Source of the DNA: Synechococcus sp. LA31
GTDB taxonomy: Bacteria > Cyanobacteriota > Cyanobacteriia > PCC-6307 > Cyanobiaceae
Reading direction: 5' to 3'
NCBI RefSeq assembly: GCF_018502385.1
Contig: NZ_CP075523.1
Location: 2,356,001-2,420,000 of the forward strand
Length of the DNA: 64,000 bases
Below the pieces are notes generated by a model. It was not told where the DNA came from. It searched no databases and saw only the letters and a list, made by a program, of their open reading frames with translations. Numbering within the stretch: position 1 is the first letter of the stretch; the number at the start of each line of letters is the position of its first letter. Of this stretch, positions 44,887-55,300 are shown in pieces. Made by a program: the position numbers and the translations under genes.

Positions 44887-46160
44887 GCGTCTCCCGCAAC
44901 GCCCTCGCGGCGCTGCTCACCTGGCTTGGCCTGGGCCTGCTACTCGGCTTGCTGGAGCGGCCGTATCAGTGGCTGTCGCAACTGGGCTTTGCATTGCAAC
45001 GCCGTCTCTGGCTGGATGAGTCTGGAGTGCCCTGGCACGGGGCGGCGCTGGTGTTCGTGGGGGGCCTGCTGTTGCTCTGGCTGGCCTGGGGGCCGTTGGC
45101 CGCTGGTCGCGGAGGCGGGCTCACCCCCGCTCTGGCGATGCAGCAAGGTGCGCCGGACGCGGCGATGCAGGAGCGTCTCAGCCTGCGCACGCAGCTCATC
45201 CGCCTCCCCCTGATGGTGCTCACTCACCTTGCGGGCATGAGTGTGGGCGTCGAGTCGCCTTCCGCCAGCCTCGGGGCTGCGTTCTTTCTGGCGATGCGTC
45301 GCCGTTGGCCTAGCCATCACGCCTGGGCGGGTATGCCTCTGCCGCTGTTCACCGCCATCGGTGCCGGTGCCGGCCTCGGGGCTGCGTTCCGCTCACCCCT
45401 CCTGGGGGTGACCTACGCCATTGAGGAGCTCAGCCGCGAGAAAGGGCTGCCGCTGGTGCTGCCCACCCTTTTGGTGGCCGGCAGTGGTGCGCTGGTGGCC
45501 TCCCGCCTCGGCCAGCCGGCTCGCCTCGCAGGCCTGGAGCTTGGGGTATTGCCTGGGCATCTCTGGGGATGGGCGCTGCTGGTCACCGTGCTGGGTGCGC
45601 TGCTCGGTGCTCTGTTTGTACGCCTCCTGATTCCCCTGGCCGGTTGGCTGGGCCGGTGTCTGCGGGCGCAGCACCTGCCGGCTGCGGTGGCGGTTGCAGG
45701 CGTGCTCACCCTGCTGGCGTTGCTCAGTGGCGGCCTCAGCCTTAACGACGGTTCCCTGTCGCTGGCGGCTGAGCTGCAGGGTGAGCCGGGCGGCACGGTC
45801 GCCACGCTGCTCTGGCGCTATCTGGCCTCGTTGCTGAGCATTGCGGCGGGGTCGCCCGGGGGCCTGATGCACGACAGCATGAGCCTTGGGTCGCTGCTCG
45901 CGGCACCGCTGCGATTCCTGCCGCCTGAGGCCCAGGCCCAGCTGGCGGCCATTGGTGCCACCGCTTTGTTTGCGGCTGCCAATCGCACCCCTTTGTTTTG
46001 TGCCCTGTTCGTGTTCACCCTGCAGGGAGATCCGCAGCTGGTGCTTCCGTTGTTGCTCGCGAGCTCGATCAGTGCGGCCCTGGCCGAGCCGCTGCGGGGC
46101 ATCACATGGAATGAAGCGCAGGTCGACACGTCTTTGGCGTTGGTGCAACGCAGGCCATGA
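44883..46160 (+). CDS. ClC-family chloride channel/antiporter, divergent
   Basis: A 425-residue polytopic membrane protein with about ten hydrophobic segments. Degenerate ClC anion-pathway motifs can be aligned: AGRGGGLTPAL for the GSGIP region, VGVESPSASLGAA for GREGPxxxxGA (the gating Glu is kept, the Arg is not), and GSPGGLMHDSMSLGSLL for the G-x-F-x-P region. Because the central Ser is missing, selectivity may differ from chloride. GTG 44883 overlaps the relA stop. The next gene starts inside its stop codon (ATGA), so all three may be one operon. Confidence 0.8.
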
Positions 46161-47305
46161 ACCTCCAGGTGCTGCTGGTTGATTCCCCCGAGCAACGGGA
46201 GGCGATCTATGCAATCCGCTACGCCATTTATGTGGAGGAGATGGGCAAATCGCCTCCGGCGGCCGATCACCAGCGCCGCTGGATCCGCGATGGTCTTGAT
46301 CCCAGCGCCCGGCTCTATGCCGTTCACAACGAGGCCGGTGGCCTGGTGGGCACGTTGCGCCTCAATCGCCTCAGCGATCTAAGCGATCCGCTTAGGGAAT
46401 TGGAGCCTCTGCCAATTGCGTCGCTGCTCGAGCGTTTCCCGCCGGAGGCGATCTCCTACACCTCGCGCCTGATGCTCCTGCCCGCCTGGCGCGGCGGTGC
46501 GGCGCTTGGGATGCTGTTCAACCGCTGCTATGGCGATGCCGCTGAGGCCGGAATCCGCGTGGATCTGTGCCACGCCAAGCCAGGCCTGGTGGAGCTCTAT
46601 GAGCAGCTGGGCTACCGCCGCTTCTGCCCCGGTCTTGATCTGGTGGGGGTGGGCTATCAGGTGCCGATGCTGCTGGCTCTGCACGACCGCGAGCATCTGC
46701 GCCATAGCCGTTCTCCGCTGCTCCGCCACCCGGCCAGTCGCCAGGGTGAAGACCGCTGGGGTGATGCCGGCTGGATGGCCTCGATCGGCGAGAGCTACCG
46801 CGGCCTCAATCACCGCCTGGTGGAGCCCGACGACTTCTGGGCAGTCGTGGGGAATGCCCTGCGTGAGGGTGTTCAGGAGATCCCGCTGTTCCGAGGGCTA
46901 AGCGACGAACAGGCGCGCGCCCTGCTCAAGACCGGCACCGTGCTCAGCTGCGAGCCCGGTGATCGCTTGGTGGGCGAGGGGGAGCCGCAACAGGAGCTGT
47001 TCGTGGTGCTTGAGGGGGTCGCTGAAGTGTGGCGTCAGCAGGACGGCCATCGGCTTTCCCTGGCGCTGCTGGAGCGGGGCGCCGTGTTCGGGGAGATGGG
47101 CTTCCTTGGCCGGGCGCAACGCAGCGCTGATGTGATCGCTGTGACGCCGATGCAGGTGCTAGTGCTCACCCAGCCCTTTCTGAATCGTTCCATTCGACAT
47201 CAACCGGATGCAGCGGCGTTGCTGCTCCGTAACCTCTCGATGGTGCTGGCGGAGCGGTTGGCGCAGACCACCGATCGCCTCTGGCAGCTGAGCCAATCCA
47301 CCTGA
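46157..47305 (+). CDS. FeeM-like GNAT acyltransferase fused to a cyclic-nucleotide-binding domain
   Basis: Residues 1-200 match the autoinducer-synthase/FeeM-like acyltransferase fold (AIYAIRYAIYVEEMGKSPPA, then LVGTLRLNRLS and ISYTSRLMLLPAWRGGAALG). FeeM proteins make N-acyl amino acids from acyl-ACP. Residues about 245-375 form a cNMP-binding domain of CRP type with a good phosphate-binding cassette (FGEMGFLGRAQRSADVIA: Glu and Arg-Ser are as in CRP), so cAMP binding is plausible. No DNA-binding domain follows. ATG 46157 overlaps the channel stop; a methyltransferase follows after 14 bases. Confidence 0.82.
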   Translation: MNLQVLLVDSPEQREAIYAIRYAIYVEEMGKSPPAADHQRRWIRDGLDPSARLYAVHNEAGGLVGTLRLNRLSDLSDPLRELEPLPIASLLERFPPEAISYTSRLMLLPAWRGGAALGMLFNRCYGDAAEAGIRVDLCHAKPGLVELYEQLGYRRFCPGLDLVGVGYQVPMLLALHDREHLRHSRSPLLRHPASRQGEDRWGDAGWMASIGESYRGLNHRLVEPDDFWAVVGNALREGVQEIPLFRGLSDEQARALLKTGTVLSCEPGDRLVGEGEPQQELFVVLEGVAEVWRQQDGHRLSLALLERGAVFGEMGFLGRAQRSADVIAVTPMQVLVLTQPFLNRSIRHQPDAAALLLRNLSMVLAERLAQTTDRLWQLSQST

Positions 47306-51351: not shown

Positions 51352-52296
51352 ATGAAGTTTCCGGTGCTTCAGAGCTGGATGGTCGGCTCCGGACAGCGGC
51401 CGCTCCGCAAGCAGTTGGCCATCACGTTGTCGGCCATTTTCTCGGTGTCGATTCTGGTGGCTGTGCTGCTGTTAAATCAGCTCTTTGGCCTCCAGGCACG
51501 CAGCCTGATTGATCAGCGCTCCAGCTTCTTCATGGATGCGATGTTGGCCGTTCGGGAATACACCAGTAAAGACGTTAACCCCATTGTTGCGCCGCTGAAC
51601 GAGGGGCCGGGTGCGTTTCGTCCTGAGTCTGTACCCAGCTATTCCGCTCAGACGGTCTTCTCGTATCTGAAGGCCAAGCCCGAGTACAGGGACTATTCCT
51701 ATCGCGAAGCGGCGCTCAATCCCACAAACTTGCGCGATAAGGCCGATAGCTTTGAAACAGGGGTGATCGAGCGCTTTCGCAATGAACCATCGCTGACCAC
51801 GCTGGCGGGGGAGAAGAGCACACCGCTTGGCCCGATGCACTTTGTGGCGCGGCCGATCAAGATCACCAAAGAGAGTTGCCTGGTTTGTCACTCCACTCCG
51901 AATCGGGCGCCCGCCAGTCAACTGCTCACCTACGGCGATAGCAGCGGCTTTGGCTGGAAGCTCAATGAGATCGTGGGCGCTCAGATTGTCACGGTGCCTC
52001 AGAAAGCTGTGTTTGCGGCGAAAGACCGTTCGCTGTTCACCACAGCCTTGCTGTTTGTGATCGCGTTTGTGGCCGTAGGGCTGATCACCAACAGCGTGCT
52101 GAATCAATTGATCTTGCGCCCGATGCGTGAGATCAGCCGTAAGGCGGAGGAGGCCAGCGTCACCCCGGCCACCGTGTCGTTTGATGAGCGCAGCCGCAGC
52201 GATGAGATCGGTCTGCTGGCCCGCAGCTTTGAGCGCATGAAGCAGAGCTTGGCCATCTCGATGCAGATGCTCAAAGACCGGCAAGGGCGTCCATGA
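51352..52296 (+). CDS. Tll0287-like (DUF3365) heme-sensor protein with HAMP domain
   Basis: A 314-residue membrane protein. TM1 is at residues 22-45 and TM2 at 228-252. Between them is a periplasmic DUF3365 domain (about 50-225) with a c-type heme site CLVCH at 176-180. A HAMP domain follows (about 250-305) and then the protein ends, so it has no output domain of its own. ATG 51352 was chosen because the upstream codons are not family-like. A sensor for redox or a small ligand is the likely role. Its stop overlaps the start of the lipoprotein gene (ATGA). Confidence 0.85.
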   Translation: MKFPVLQSWMVGSGQRPLRKQLAITLSAIFSVSILVAVLLLNQLFGLQARSLIDQRSSFFMDAMLAVREYTSKDVNPIVAPLNEGPGAFRPESVPSYSAQTVFSYLKAKPEYRDYSYREAALNPTNLRDKADSFETGVIERFRNEPSLTTLAGEKSTPLGPMHFVARPIKITKESCLVCHSTPNRAPASQLLTYGDSSGFGWKLNEIVGAQIVTVPQKAVFAAKDRSLFTTALLFVIAFVAVGLITNSVLNQLILRPMREISRKAEEASVTPATVSFDERSRSDEIGLLARSFERMKQSLAISMQMLKDRQGRP

Positions 52297-53231
52297 GCGT
52301 TGCTGGGTTGGGGGTGCGGCGGCCGCTGCTGGCCGTTGCGTCGATGCTGTCGATCTTGATGGGCTGTGGGCAGCGACCTTCTGCGCAGGTGAGCCTGTGC
52401 GGCCCGACTGGTCAACTACGGGTGGGTTATGTGGGTGCTGAAGAAGGTCGTGGATCGGCGGGGCAATCCGTGTTGCTTGACCCCGATATCTCCCGGCTGC
52501 GCGATCTGCTCACCATCGCCAGTCGTTGTGAGGTGTCTCTGGAGCCGGTAGCCAGCCCGGAGCAGGCACGGCAACGGCTCGGGGCCGGCGAATGGGATCT
52601 GGCATTCCTGCCGCCGGGTCTGGCCGCGTTGGCGATGGAGGGGACAGGCAACCGTGATTACAGTCTGCTGCGCCCGCTCGGGCAGCGCAGTCAGTCACGC
52701 TCGCAGTTGTTGGTGTCGTCCGGTAGTGATCGGCGTACGCTCGCGCAATTGAACGGCGCCCGGTTAGGCCTGTTGCCGCGGGGTTCGCTCACGGGTTTTT
52801 ATCTGCCCCTTTACAACCTGCACGGGTTGCGTCTGCAGTCGGTGCACTATGCCCTCAGTTACCAAGAGTTGCTCGATCAATTGCAGGCCGGCAGGCTGGA
52901 TGTGATCGCTTGGGATGCTTCGCTGCCTGATCCCGGCGTCGATGTTCGGGTGATCGTTGATGATCCAAATCTGATCCCTGTGGGTGCGCTGGTGCTCAGT
53001 CAGCCCCTGGTGGCAGCTGACCACCAACCGTTTCTTAAGCTGCTGGATCAGAGTGCTGCCCAGCTCCCTCCCGGCCTGGGTTATGTGGCTGGAGTGTTGC
53101 CGGAAGCGCAGCGTTTGCAACGGCTACGCACGGTGGTCACCAACGTGGAGAGCTGGTCATTGCCGTTGAAAGGGCAGCCTTATGCCGTCTACGGTCGTAA
53201 ACAGCAACTCAATGCTGAGGGAGCGAATTGA
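52293..53231 (+). CDS. PhnD-like substrate-binding lipoprotein
   Basis: A 312-residue protein with a lipobox (SMLSILMGCG, Cys at about residue 25) and a type-2 periplasmic-binding fold of the PhnD/phosphonate-binding family (LRVGYVGAEEGRGSAGQSVL, VASPEQARQRLGAGEWDLAF, LNGARLGLLPRGSLTGFYLP). In this setting there is no transporter; the neighbours are a heme sensor and a cyclase-kinase, so it more likely serves ligand sensing than uptake. Its start and stop overlap both neighbours. Confidence 0.82.
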   Translation: MSVAGLGVRRPLLAVASMLSILMGCGQRPSAQVSLCGPTGQLRVGYVGAEEGRGSAGQSVLLDPDISRLRDLLTIASRCEVSLEPVASPEQARQRLGAGEWDLAFLPPGLAALAMEGTGNRDYSLLRPLGQRSQSRSQLLVSSGSDRRTLAQLNGARLGLLPRGSLTGFYLPLYNLHGLRLQSVHYALSYQELLDQLQAGRLDVIAWDASLPDPGVDVRVIVDDPNLIPVGALVLSQPLVAADHQPFLKLLDQSAAQLPPGLGYVAGVLPEAQRLQRLRTVVTNVESWSLPLKGQPYAVYGRKQQLNAEGAN

Positions 53232-55300
53232 TGGCCGGGCGTGAACGCCAGCTCAAGGCCATCGTGTTCAGCGATGTGGTCGATTCCTCCGTGAAGATCT
53301 TTGCCGATGAGCTGATTGCCATTCAGCGCATCAAAGAAGATCTGGCGTTGATTCGTGATGAGCTGCAGCGCCATGGCGGGTCCTTGGTGAAATCGCTGGG
53401 TGATGGCCTGCTGGCCACGTTCGATGGCCCCACACAGGCGCTGGAGTTTATTCAGTCCTGCGTGCAAAACCTGTCAGCGAGGGGGCGTCAATCACTGGCC
53501 CATCGCTTTGGTCTGCATACCGGCGAGATTTACGCCGATGGTGACGACATCCTCGGGCAGGGGGTGCATCTGGCCTCGCGTCTGCAGACCGTGAGCCCTG
53601 CCAATGGTGTGGCGTTTGTCCGCTCCACCTACGACCTGATCGATCCCCGTTTCCGTCGCCTGGCGCAGCCCATGGGTGAGGTGGAGCTCAAGGGGTTACC
53701 GGAGCCGATGCAGGCCTATTGCCTGGGCCAGGAGCAGTTGCTCGACTTTGCCCAGGGCCATGCGACTGAGGCGGTGCAACTGGAGATGCTGCTGGCGCAT
53801 ACGCCGTTTGAGCTGGTGCGCCCGTTGGGACGCTCTTCCGCTCAGCAGACCCTGCTGCTCCAGGAGCGGCAACGGGAGCGCCAGGCGGTGATGAAGCTGA
53901 TCCCTGCGGGACCCACGTTGGTGGAGGCCCTGCAGGTGGAGGCTGCCTGTCTGGATCGGCTGCGCCATCCCCGTATCCCGCGAGTGCTGGATGGCTATGC
54001 CCGCTCAGGGATGTTCTGCTTCATTCAGGAATACATTCCTGGCCCATCCCTCCAGGGATCGCTGGATTTGCTGCGTCGTAAGCAGCGGTTGGCAGAGTTG
54101 CTGCGGCAAGTGCTGCACGTGCTCGAGCAGGTTCATGCTGCCGGCCTGGTGCATGGCGATTTGCATCCCGCCAACCTGATCCCCCCTCAGGAGGAGGGCC
54201 CCCTCTTTCTGGTGGATTTCTCGTTGCTGAAGGCCCGCCTGGATACGGGATCCGATCAACGCTCCGCAGGGTTCACGGGTGTCTCGGAGGCGGGGCGTCC
54301 GTTTTTCTCAGCGCCGGAGCGTGCTCGCTTCGGCCGGCTGACACCAGCCGCCGACCTTTACGCCTTGGGGGTGTCGGCCTTGAGCCTCTACACCGGTCAA
54401 GATCCCGCCAGCCTCTACGACGAAGCCCAGGGCTGTTGGTCACTACAGGGGGTAGAGGCGGAGGTGGCCGGTTGGCTGGCACCCCTGCTGGAAGACCTGC
54501 CGGCCCGGCGTGTGCAGCAAGCGGCCGATGCCCTGCGGCTGCTCGATCAGCCGCCCACCGCTCCGTTGGCCAGCTCCCTCCCTGCGCTGGGGAGCCCGGC
54601 GCCCGGCCTTGGTGCACTCAGCAAGCCCGTGCTGCATCAGCAGCTGGTGAGCACCTACGGCCCGATGGTGGAGTTGCTGCTCGACAGCCAGCCCAGCGTG
54701 ATTGCGGCCGTGCAGGTGCCTGCGCTGCAGGAGCGGTTGGTGGCGGCTGGCTTGTCGCGCGCTGACGTGGAGGAGGCCTGCCGCACCGCGCAGGTGCAGC
54801 CGGAGCCGGCGGTTGCGGTCGAGCCTGAGCTCCCGCAGGCCTCCGTGCCGTCCCCTGCTCAACCGGCGGGGCCTGACCTGGGCTATATGCCGGCGCTGCG
54901 CCTTGCGATTGGTCCGATCGCTGATCTGATCTGGACGGCGGAGATGGAGCGGGCTGCGGCTGCTGATCCTCGGCGCTTGCGCGAGTTATTGCTCCAGGCC
55001 AGCGTTCCTGAGGCCGCTGTGGAGTTGTTGTTGCAGCAGGTTTCAGAGGCGGTGGCTGAGTCGGTTCCTGTCGTGGTGGAAGCCATTCAGCCCACCACCC
55101 CCGAGCAGGAGGCGCCTGCGGCCGTCGATGGGGAGCAGTTGCTGCTGCGCCTGATCGGCCCCATTGGCAGCACGGTGTGGCAAGAGGTGGCCCACTTGCC
55201 GGCGGAGCAGCGGCTGGTGGCTCTGGAAACCACCCTGCGGGGCTACGGCCTGGATGCGTTCACCCTCGCTGATCTGCGCCGGCAGCTTCAAGGGGGATGA
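53231..55300 (+). CDS. Class III nucleotide cyclase fused to a Ser/Thr-kinase-like domain and three C-terminal repeats
   Basis: The 689-residue cytoplasmic protein starts with a class III cyclase domain (about 8-165). Metal-binding Asp residues are in FSDVVDSS (Asp15) and SLGDGLLATF (Asp58), but the transition-state Asn is replaced by His113 (GQGVHLASRL). A kinase-like domain follows (190-450): Lys222 in AVMKLI, catalytic loop HGDLHPANLI (Asp310), DFS in place of DFG (Asp329), then APER and DLYALG. The P-loop is poor. Three related blocks of about 55 residues end the protein (YGPMVELLLDSQP, IGPIADLIWTAEM, IGPIGSTVWQEVA). ATG 53231 overlaps the upstream stop. Confidence 0.85.
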   Translation: MAGRERQLKAIVFSDVVDSSVKIFADELIAIQRIKEDLALIRDELQRHGGSLVKSLGDGLLATFDGPTQALEFIQSCVQNLSARGRQSLAHRFGLHTGEIYADGDDILGQGVHLASRLQTVSPANGVAFVRSTYDLIDPRFRRLAQPMGEVELKGLPEPMQAYCLGQEQLLDFAQGHATEAVQLEMLLAHTPFELVRPLGRSSAQQTLLLQERQRERQAVMKLIPAGPTLVEALQVEAACLDRLRHPRIPRVLDGYARSGMFCFIQEYIPGPSLQGSLDLLRRKQRLAELLRQVLHVLEQVHAAGLVHGDLHPANLIPPQEEGPLFLVDFSLLKARLDTGSDQRSAGFTGVSEAGRPFFSAPERARFGRLTPAADLYALGVSALSLYTGQDPASLYDEAQGCWSLQGVEAEVAGWLAPLLEDLPARRVQQAADALRLLDQPPTAPLASSLPALGSPAPGLGALSKPVLHQQLVSTYGPMVELLLDSQPSVIAAVQVPALQERLVAAGLSRADVEEACRTAQVQPEPAVAVEPELPQASVPSPAQPAGPDLGYMPALRLAIGPIADLIWTAEMERAAAADPRRLRELLLQASVPEAAVELLLQQVSEAVAESVPVVVEAIQPTTPEQEAPAAVDGEQLLLRLIGPIGSTVWQEVAHLPAEQRLVALETTLRGYGLDAFTLADLRRQLQGG

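Follow-up and report, generated by a model that had tools for sequence, protein, structure and literature searches.

In Archaeoglobus fulgidus, the gene for Af1502 is translationally coupled to that for Af1503, a receptor that ends at its HAMP domain, and Af1502 itself defines the STAC domain, which consists of four helices, the first two separated by an LGPx(x)A motif (PMC4834066). In arsenic-sensing systems, the PhnD-like proteins AioX and ArrX sense for a separate histidine kinase (PMC5908839). Finally, a 2026 preprint (PMC12889525) reports that a heme Cache receptor of Pseudomonas azotoformans, which bears a HAMP domain and has neither an output domain nor an axial Cys, binds nitric oxide (NO) tightly. 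Here we describe three adjoining genes of Synechococcus sp. LA31 that recall all of these systems. They lie in a window of 64,000 nucleotides from NZ_CP075523.1, i.e., the whole stretch of DNA that was analysed and to which the coordinates refer. Gene 1 encodes a heme receptor, gene 2 a PhnD-like lipoprotein and gene 3 a cyclase-kinase with C-terminal STAC-like repeats. In the reading that we favour, and hold to be reasonably probable, the receptor ending at HAMP drives a separate enzyme via the STAC-like repeats, and is tuned by a c-type heme together with an AioX/ArrX-like lipoprotein.

As in Af1503/Af1502, the receptor of the window set ends at HAMP and a coupled gene carries a domain predicted to have four helices, with GP(x)A lying between the first two. 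Af1502, however, is a stand-alone protein of 68 residues with no enzyme, whereas the window repeats stand in tandem and are fused to a cyclase and a kinase; moreover, the archaeal operon contains an MgtE-type transporter, whereas the sensor of the window set is a c-heme Cache domain. In the SLC5-STAC histidine kinases CbrA and CrbS, STAC also relays a membrane signal to a kinase, but there it follows an SLC5 transporter in a single chain. Pfam gave no SLC5 match for the three window proteins, which thus do not have the CbrA-type layout. AioX, ArrX and ArxX, which act with AioS-AioR in arsenic sensing, resemble gene 2 in being PhnD-like periplasmic proteins encoded with a membrane sensor and without a transporter. 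The receptor that they serve differs from gene 1 in being a histidine kinase that acts with a response regulator. The likeness of gene 2 to AioX/ArrX is at the level of fold, and we do not place it in their group, which is marked by arsenic-site residues such as Cys106 and His192. Amongst the sCache_heme (DUF3365/Tll0287) proteins, the P. azotoformans HAMP protein is especially similar to gene 1, given its periplasmic domain, two membrane helices, HAMP, and lack of both output domain and axial Cys; the available portion of the preprint names no cytoplasmic partner for it (PMC12889525), whereas for gene 1 both a partner and a lipoprotein were identified by context. The closest solved cyclase to that of gene 3 is LipJ (Rv1900c), which is fused to a lipase and not to a kinase. 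A HAMP-only receptor with a STAC-like partner is therefore known in kind; the heme sensor, the sensor lipoprotein and the exchangeable catalytic heads are what is added here.

The three-gene locus

Genes 1, 2 and 3 occupy the nadC–argS interval in that order, on the plus strand. Their features are as follows (E, expectation value; aa, amino acids; hhalign values are P-values of single profile-profile comparisons).

51352..52296, plus strand: gene 1, two-pass membrane receptor of 314 aa with a Tll0287-like/sCache_heme Cache domain and a cytoplasmic HAMP, no output domain (Pfam; ATG start kept in relatives)
51877..51891, plus strand: CLVCH c-type heme attachment motif in gene 1 (from the sequence)
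52099..52251, plus strand: HAMP domain of gene 1 (PF00672, aa 250-300, E 2.5e-8), then only a short conserved tail (RMKQSLAISMQMLKDR region)
52293..53231, plus strand: gene 2, orphan PhnD-like periplasmic binding lipoprotein of 312 aa (weak PF12974 match, 43.8 bits, cut-off 27)
52365..52367, plus strand: lipobox cysteine Cys25 of gene 2, predicted lipid anchor (invariant in 42/42 aligned homologues)
53231..55300, plus strand: gene 3, cyclase plus protein kinase plus C-terminal STAC-like repeats, 689 aa from ATG (Pfam, orthologue alignment; alternative TTG start at 53228, 690 aa)
53258..53725, plus strand: class III nucleotide cyclase domain of gene 3 (PF00211, Guanylate_cyc, E 1.1e-7)
53810..54548, plus strand: Ser/Thr protein kinase domain of gene 3 (PF00069, Pkinase, E 1e-17)
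54629..54775, plus strand: STAC-like repeat 1 of gene 3, YGPMVELLL (iterated hidden Markov model, HMM; hhalign to other cyanobacterial repeats P 1.1e-4)
54890..55039, plus strand: STAC-like repeat 2 of gene 3, IGPIADLIW (iterated HMM; hhalign P 9.6e-7; whole-genome search E 1.5e-10 with a profile including repeat 2)
55133..55285, plus strand: STAC-like repeat 3 of gene 3, IGPIGSTVW (iterated HMM; hhalign P 7.6e-9)

An earlier note, made from the DNA letters, had described overlaps of 3-4 bases throughout. This is correct for genes 1 and 2, which share four bases (ATGA), while genes 2 and 3 share one base if gene 3 starts at ATG (TGATG) and four if it starts at TTG. The note's account of gene 1 as a c-type heme domain plus HAMP with no output was borne out by PF11845, PF00672 and CLVCH, with nothing beyond HAMP, as was that of gene 2 as a binding lipoprotein without a transporter, given its lipobox, its PF12974 match and the absence of an adjoining ATP-binding cassette (ABC) ATPase or permease. 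Gene 3 is, as it proposed, a soluble cyclase-kinase (PF00211, PF00069) with no evident membrane segment; the claim that it has no input, however, did not hold, since the protein carries three C-terminal repeats. The note also knew of no described system of this kind. Our search of the available literature likewise found no description of the three-gene set, although its architecture has precedents in Af1503/Af1502 (PMC4834066) and AioX/ArrX (PMC5908839).

Conservation and co-occurrence of the set

Orthologues of genes 2 and 3 were sought in a family sample of 151 genomes. Gene 2 was present in seven of these, and near full-length gene 3 orthologues were found in the same seven, always adjoining gene 1. 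The order and strand of the three genes were kept in 7/7 of these genomes, which represent three genera, and five further picocyanobacterial loci with the same order brought the total to 12. Gene order in relatives had been put forward by the earlier note as a check on its proposal, and order and strand were preserved in 12/12 loci. Compared with the window proteins, those of other genera are 61-76% identical in the case of gene 1, 45-52% in that of gene 2 and 47-56% in that of gene 3; the gene order has therefore survived much divergence.

Beyond the picocyanobacteria, 80 loci were picked by gene 1 homology alone in a scan of bacterial and archaeal genomes, nearly all of them labelled cyanobacterial. 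A PhnD-like gene lay within three genes of the gene 1 homologue in 52 loci, compared with 3/523 control offsets, and these PhnD-like genes formed one coherent subfamily. Similarly, a kinase or cyclase was encoded within two genes in 59/80 loci (control offsets, 11/508). Gene order and orientation varied across the 80 loci, with the PhnD-like gene often divergent and the kinase convergent. The repeat that ends gene 3 occurred in some neighbour at 71/80 loci and in the next gene at 58/79, while offsets -4 to -1 yielded 0-1 of 77-80. It was attached to kinases (50), cyclase-kinases (11), cyclases (2), caspase-like proteins (nine, four of them Pfam-verified) and a histidine kinase (1). The HMM was seeded from kinases and cyclases, and it also picked up the caspase-domain proteins and the histidine kinase, with the repeat in the same position.

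Gene 1 homologues with a Ser/Thr kinase downstream were also found on plasmids of Caballeronia, Paraburkholderia, Skermanella and Rhodovulum. In all, a HAMP-only heme receptor was found together with a repeat-bearing Ser/Thr kinase at five plasmid loci of Proteobacteria. A plasmid search using the kinase C-terminus alone returned five records, all of which had already been recovered via gene 1, and no sequence match to gene 2 homologues was found on plasmids.

Co-occurrence was assessed in 244 cyanobacterial genomes from 108 genera, amongst which the repeat was present in 23, the full-length receptor in 35 and the gene 2 type in 18. The receptor was found in 23/23 repeat genomes and in 18/18 gene 2 genomes, and all 18 of the latter had both receptor and repeat; counted by genus, the association was 17/17 (P 1e-13). 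The repeat occurred in 23/29 genomes with an output-less receptor, but in 0/6 of those in which every receptor is part of a longer, fused frame (Fisher P 6e-4); these P-values are inflated by the relatedness of the genomes, the genus count and the contrast between fused and unfused receptors being the more robust parts. Across 23 genomes, the copy numbers of output-less receptors and of repeat proteins were correlated (rho 0.89). The conserved set and this genome-by-genome co-occurrence strongly support the earlier proposal of a single signalling route made up of the three proteins, and we consider a functional association of the set to be very likely.

Several neighbourhoods contained further genes of interest. 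Caspase-domain proteins ending in repeats lie near the heme receptor at the loci L098, L105, L107, L112, L113, L124, L126, L139 and L142, which suggests that they are heme-controlled proteases. On Caballeronia, Skermanella and Paraburkholderia plasmids (L057-L060), the receptor and kinase genes are found next to type VI secretion clusters or within them, in one case together with a PP2C phosphatase. A Kovacikia minuta plasmid encodes a gene 1 homologue of 524 aa (L062:6974-8548, plus strand), the C-terminal part of which reads as a putative cyclic-nucleotide-binding domain, downstream of genes reading like the baseplate of a contractile injection system. In Nodosilinea, a TIR-domain protein is encoded directly 3' of the heme receptor (L120:5545-6273, plus strand; L122, about 9175, plus strand). 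Finally, in Nostocales loci including L072, L073 and L076, the receptor has a repeat-bearing kinase downstream and a second kinase, of ~600 residues and without the repeat, upstream.

A STAC-like repeat in gene 3 and its relatives

The repeat is ~55 residues long, has the consensus xxxCExELxxxIGPIAxxxxxxxLxxxPxxSxxxLVxxLAxxIPxxxxAxxFRxx and occurs in one to three copies at the C-terminal end of the partner of gene 1. No Pfam model covers it. In gene 3, three copies lie within the last ~240 residues, and a whole-genome search detected the repeat in no other protein of this genome. An HMM that excluded both picocyanobacterial and proteobacterial sequences found the five proteobacterial kinases with E-values of 1e-9 to 2e-18 and ranked gene 3 first amongst the open reading frames of the window (E 1e-3).

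A profile of the repeats of relatives was compared with the PDB. Using a widened segment (profile A6), the sole match below 0.1 was Af1502 (5A1Q, E 0.0016), for which a shorter first profile (A5) had given E 0.15. The AlphaFold model of one relative's repeat, with a predicted local distance difference test score (pLDDT) of 93, is a four-helix bundle with helices at residues 5-19, 23-33, 39-47 and 53-64 and the GP(x)A motif at 19-23. When compared with 350,542 chains, this model had 5A1Q as its top fold (Foldseek probability 0.97, template modelling (TM) score 0.66), the next fold having a probability of 0.30. Homology of the repeat to Af1502 rests on the combination of profile match, fold rank, motif and genomic context, and we accordingly term the repeat STAC-like, not a proven STAC domain.

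It is likely that gene 3 docks on the receptor through this repeat. Alternatively, the genes might cooperate while the repeats serve only as oligomerisation modules or spacers, with gene 3 sensing gene 1 via its kinase or cyclase domain or via a second, unlinked partner. In keeping with such a role, the window repeats are diverged and separated by proline-rich linkers. On the other hand, partners whose heads are unrelated have nothing but the repeat in common, and the six genomes in which the output is built into the receptor lack the repeat, whereas a spacer would not be expected to track receptor type. We therefore judge this alternative unlikely.

In the cyclase of gene 3, Asp15, Lys54, Asp58, Asp106, His113 and Arg117 are invariant in seven orthologues and conform to the class III residue set, with D15 and D58 as the metal-binding Asp residues, K54 and D106 for the substrate, R117 for the transition state and His113 in place of the usual Asn. 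The best PDB match, LipJ (1ybt), also has His at this position. The Hanks-type Ser/Thr kinase set (Lys, Glu, catalytic Asp-Asn and the Asp of DFG) is likewise complete, and Lys222, Glu237, Asp310, Asn315 and Asp329 are invariant in the seven orthologues, with HGD replacing HRD. Both domains are predicted to be active. About 4 kb upstream, a protein encoded at 46157-47305 (plus strand) combines an N-terminal acetyltransferase-like region with a C-terminal cyclic-nucleotide-binding domain and matches CRP and mycobacterial Pat models; judging by its domains, it is a possible target of cyclic AMP (cAMP) from gene 3.

The lipoprotein encoded by gene 2

A profile of 42 gene 2 homologues matched the structures of PtxB, PhnD and ArrX. 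The AlphaFold model made with these homologues has a binding-protein fold (pLDDT 85.8), the nearest structures being XAC2383, ArrX, PhnD and AioX. ArrX occupied ranks 2 and 5-7 and AioX ranks 12-13 amongst the fold matches, all with a probability of 1.00. Genes for an ABC ATPase or permease, as in PhnCDE-type transporters, were absent beside gene 2 at the locus. By contrast, both adjoin the selenate-type PhnD relative of the same genome (L055), which served as a positive control. Gene 2 was also considered as GrrP (TIGR04262); however, the model gave no match up to E 1, and true GrrP is a separate gene at L047 and L048.

We consider gene 2 somewhat likely to be a co-sensor. It could instead be an uptake or scavenging lipoprotein of the phosphonate, phosphite or selenate type and a mere neighbour, the real system consisting of genes 1 and 3. 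PhnD-like proteins are common, and upstream of the proteobacterial receptor-kinase pairs there are FecR, peptidoglycan-binding (PG_binding_1) or unknown genes instead of PhnD. This explanation is nevertheless improbable in view of the coherent subfamily found so often beside the receptor, the presence of receptor and repeat in every gene 2 genome, and the lack of the transporter genes that accompany the selenate-type relative.

The heme receptor encoded by gene 1

The PF11845 match of gene 1 spans aa 48-216 (E 1.8e-37, 129.4 bits, cut-off 24.1). The CLVCH motif is invariant in 9/9 aligned orthologues and in 11 distant homologues, and it contains the only two cysteines of the protein, which hence has no axial Cys. 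Only 14 residues, forming the conserved tail, follow the Pfam HAMP match. The best PDB match of this HAMP is that of Af1503 (4gn0, E 3.7e-6), and it extends through the tail.

In PMC12889525, tight NO binding with no stable O2 complex characterises the signalling (cluster 2) sCache_heme type and was demonstrated for the P. azotoformans homologue only, whereas proteins in which the heme Cache domain stands alone, P. putida Target 1 among them, have poor NO binding and look redox-like. Gene 1 shares the membrane helices, the HAMP and the lack of an axial Cys with the NO-binding type. By this analogy, NO is a tentative candidate for the signal of the gene 1 heme.

The properties of the stand-alone proteins, which suit redox roles, raise the alternative that gene 1 serves in electron transfer, like Tll0287, and not in sensing, with gene 3 being regulated otherwise. 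Given that gene 1 has two membrane segments, a HAMP signal relay and no axial Cys, and that the tested HAMP-bearing homologue binds NO tightly according to the same source, we regard this as quite improbable.

A chance adjacency without joint function at a gene-rich insertion point, the nadC–argS site, which also takes grr genes in three relatives, is effectively excluded because the same order and strand recur in 12 picocyanobacterial loci, whilst elsewhere in Cyanobacteria the set turns up at unrelated sites and differently ordered, and Proteobacteria have the receptor-kinase pair as well.

The grr genes in question belong to a cyclophane peptide system and comprise the GrrM radical SAM maturase plus GrrA or GrrP; three relatives, from two genera, carry them in the interval from nadC to gene 1 (L045:3468-5026, plus strand; L047:1540-4183, plus strand; L048:8007-10623, minus strand). 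In the window's own genome, grrA-grrM is far off, at about 7.0-8.5 kb of G000:C1. A general link between grr and the three genes was rejected, as grr adjoins them at no more than three loci, from two genera; the presence of GrrM in all seven set-bearing genomes is weak evidence for such a link because 55/151 genomes have GrrM. Weak GrrP-like matches at L068 and L092 had low scores and are probably ordinary amino-acid-binding proteins.

Proposed signalling route and its significance

In the route that we propose, gene 1 would form a dimeric membrane receptor, the covalent c-type heme of which, held in the periplasmic Cache domain, would be read out most likely as NO binding or redox state. Once its ligand is bound, gene 2 probably attaches to gene 1 from the periplasmic side, in the manner proposed for AioX and AioS. 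The heme state and loaded gene 2 would together alter the gene 1 dimer, and this change would pass through HAMP to gene 3, the STAC-like repeats of which may attach to the HAMP domain where gene 1 ends, by analogy with Af1502/Af1503. The bringing together of two gene 3 chains could switch both kinase and cyclase, the class III cyclases being dimeric enzymes. Gene content, motifs, the conserved set, its co-occurrence, the exchange of catalytic heads and the fold of the repeat in relatives are computed results, from which the two docking steps, the heme signal (NO or redox), the enzyme activities and the direction of signalling are inferred.

A number of observations weigh against this proposal, the support for which is computational throughout. 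The window's own repeats have diverged, such that the HMM lacking picocyanobacterial sequences reaches gene 3 only at E 1e-3, and the Foldseek E-value to Af1502 is 0.46, which is not significant alone. Six genomes with a short receptor (G045, G075, G101, G300, G313 and G315) had no detected repeat, and several genomes encode the repeat protein away from the receptor. NO binding is known only for a distant homologue of gene 1. The proteobacterial loci lack gene 2 or have other genes in its place, and it is therefore not essential to the receptor-enzyme pair. Moreover, orthologues from related genomes cannot be counted as wholly separate events.

More broadly, it is an even prospect that the STAC-like repeat acts generally as a plug on the cytoplasmic side, through which heme receptors of the HAMP-only kind control exchangeable, separate effectors (Ser/Thr kinases, nucleotide cyclases, histidine kinases and caspase-like proteases) in trans. 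If true, this layout would be a receptor-effector design distinct from two-component systems and chemoreceptor arrays. Receptors ending at HAMP, i.e., the puzzle posed by Af1503 and the newly reported output-less NO-binding Cache proteins, would gain a concrete partner, and searching for a STAC-like repeat would provide a rule for finding the partners of HAMP-only receptors. The transfer of a signal from HAMP to a separate protein would also become directly testable using small soluble parts. In cyanobacteria, periplasmic heme sensing would be linked to cAMP, Ser/Thr phosphorylation and caspase-like proteases.

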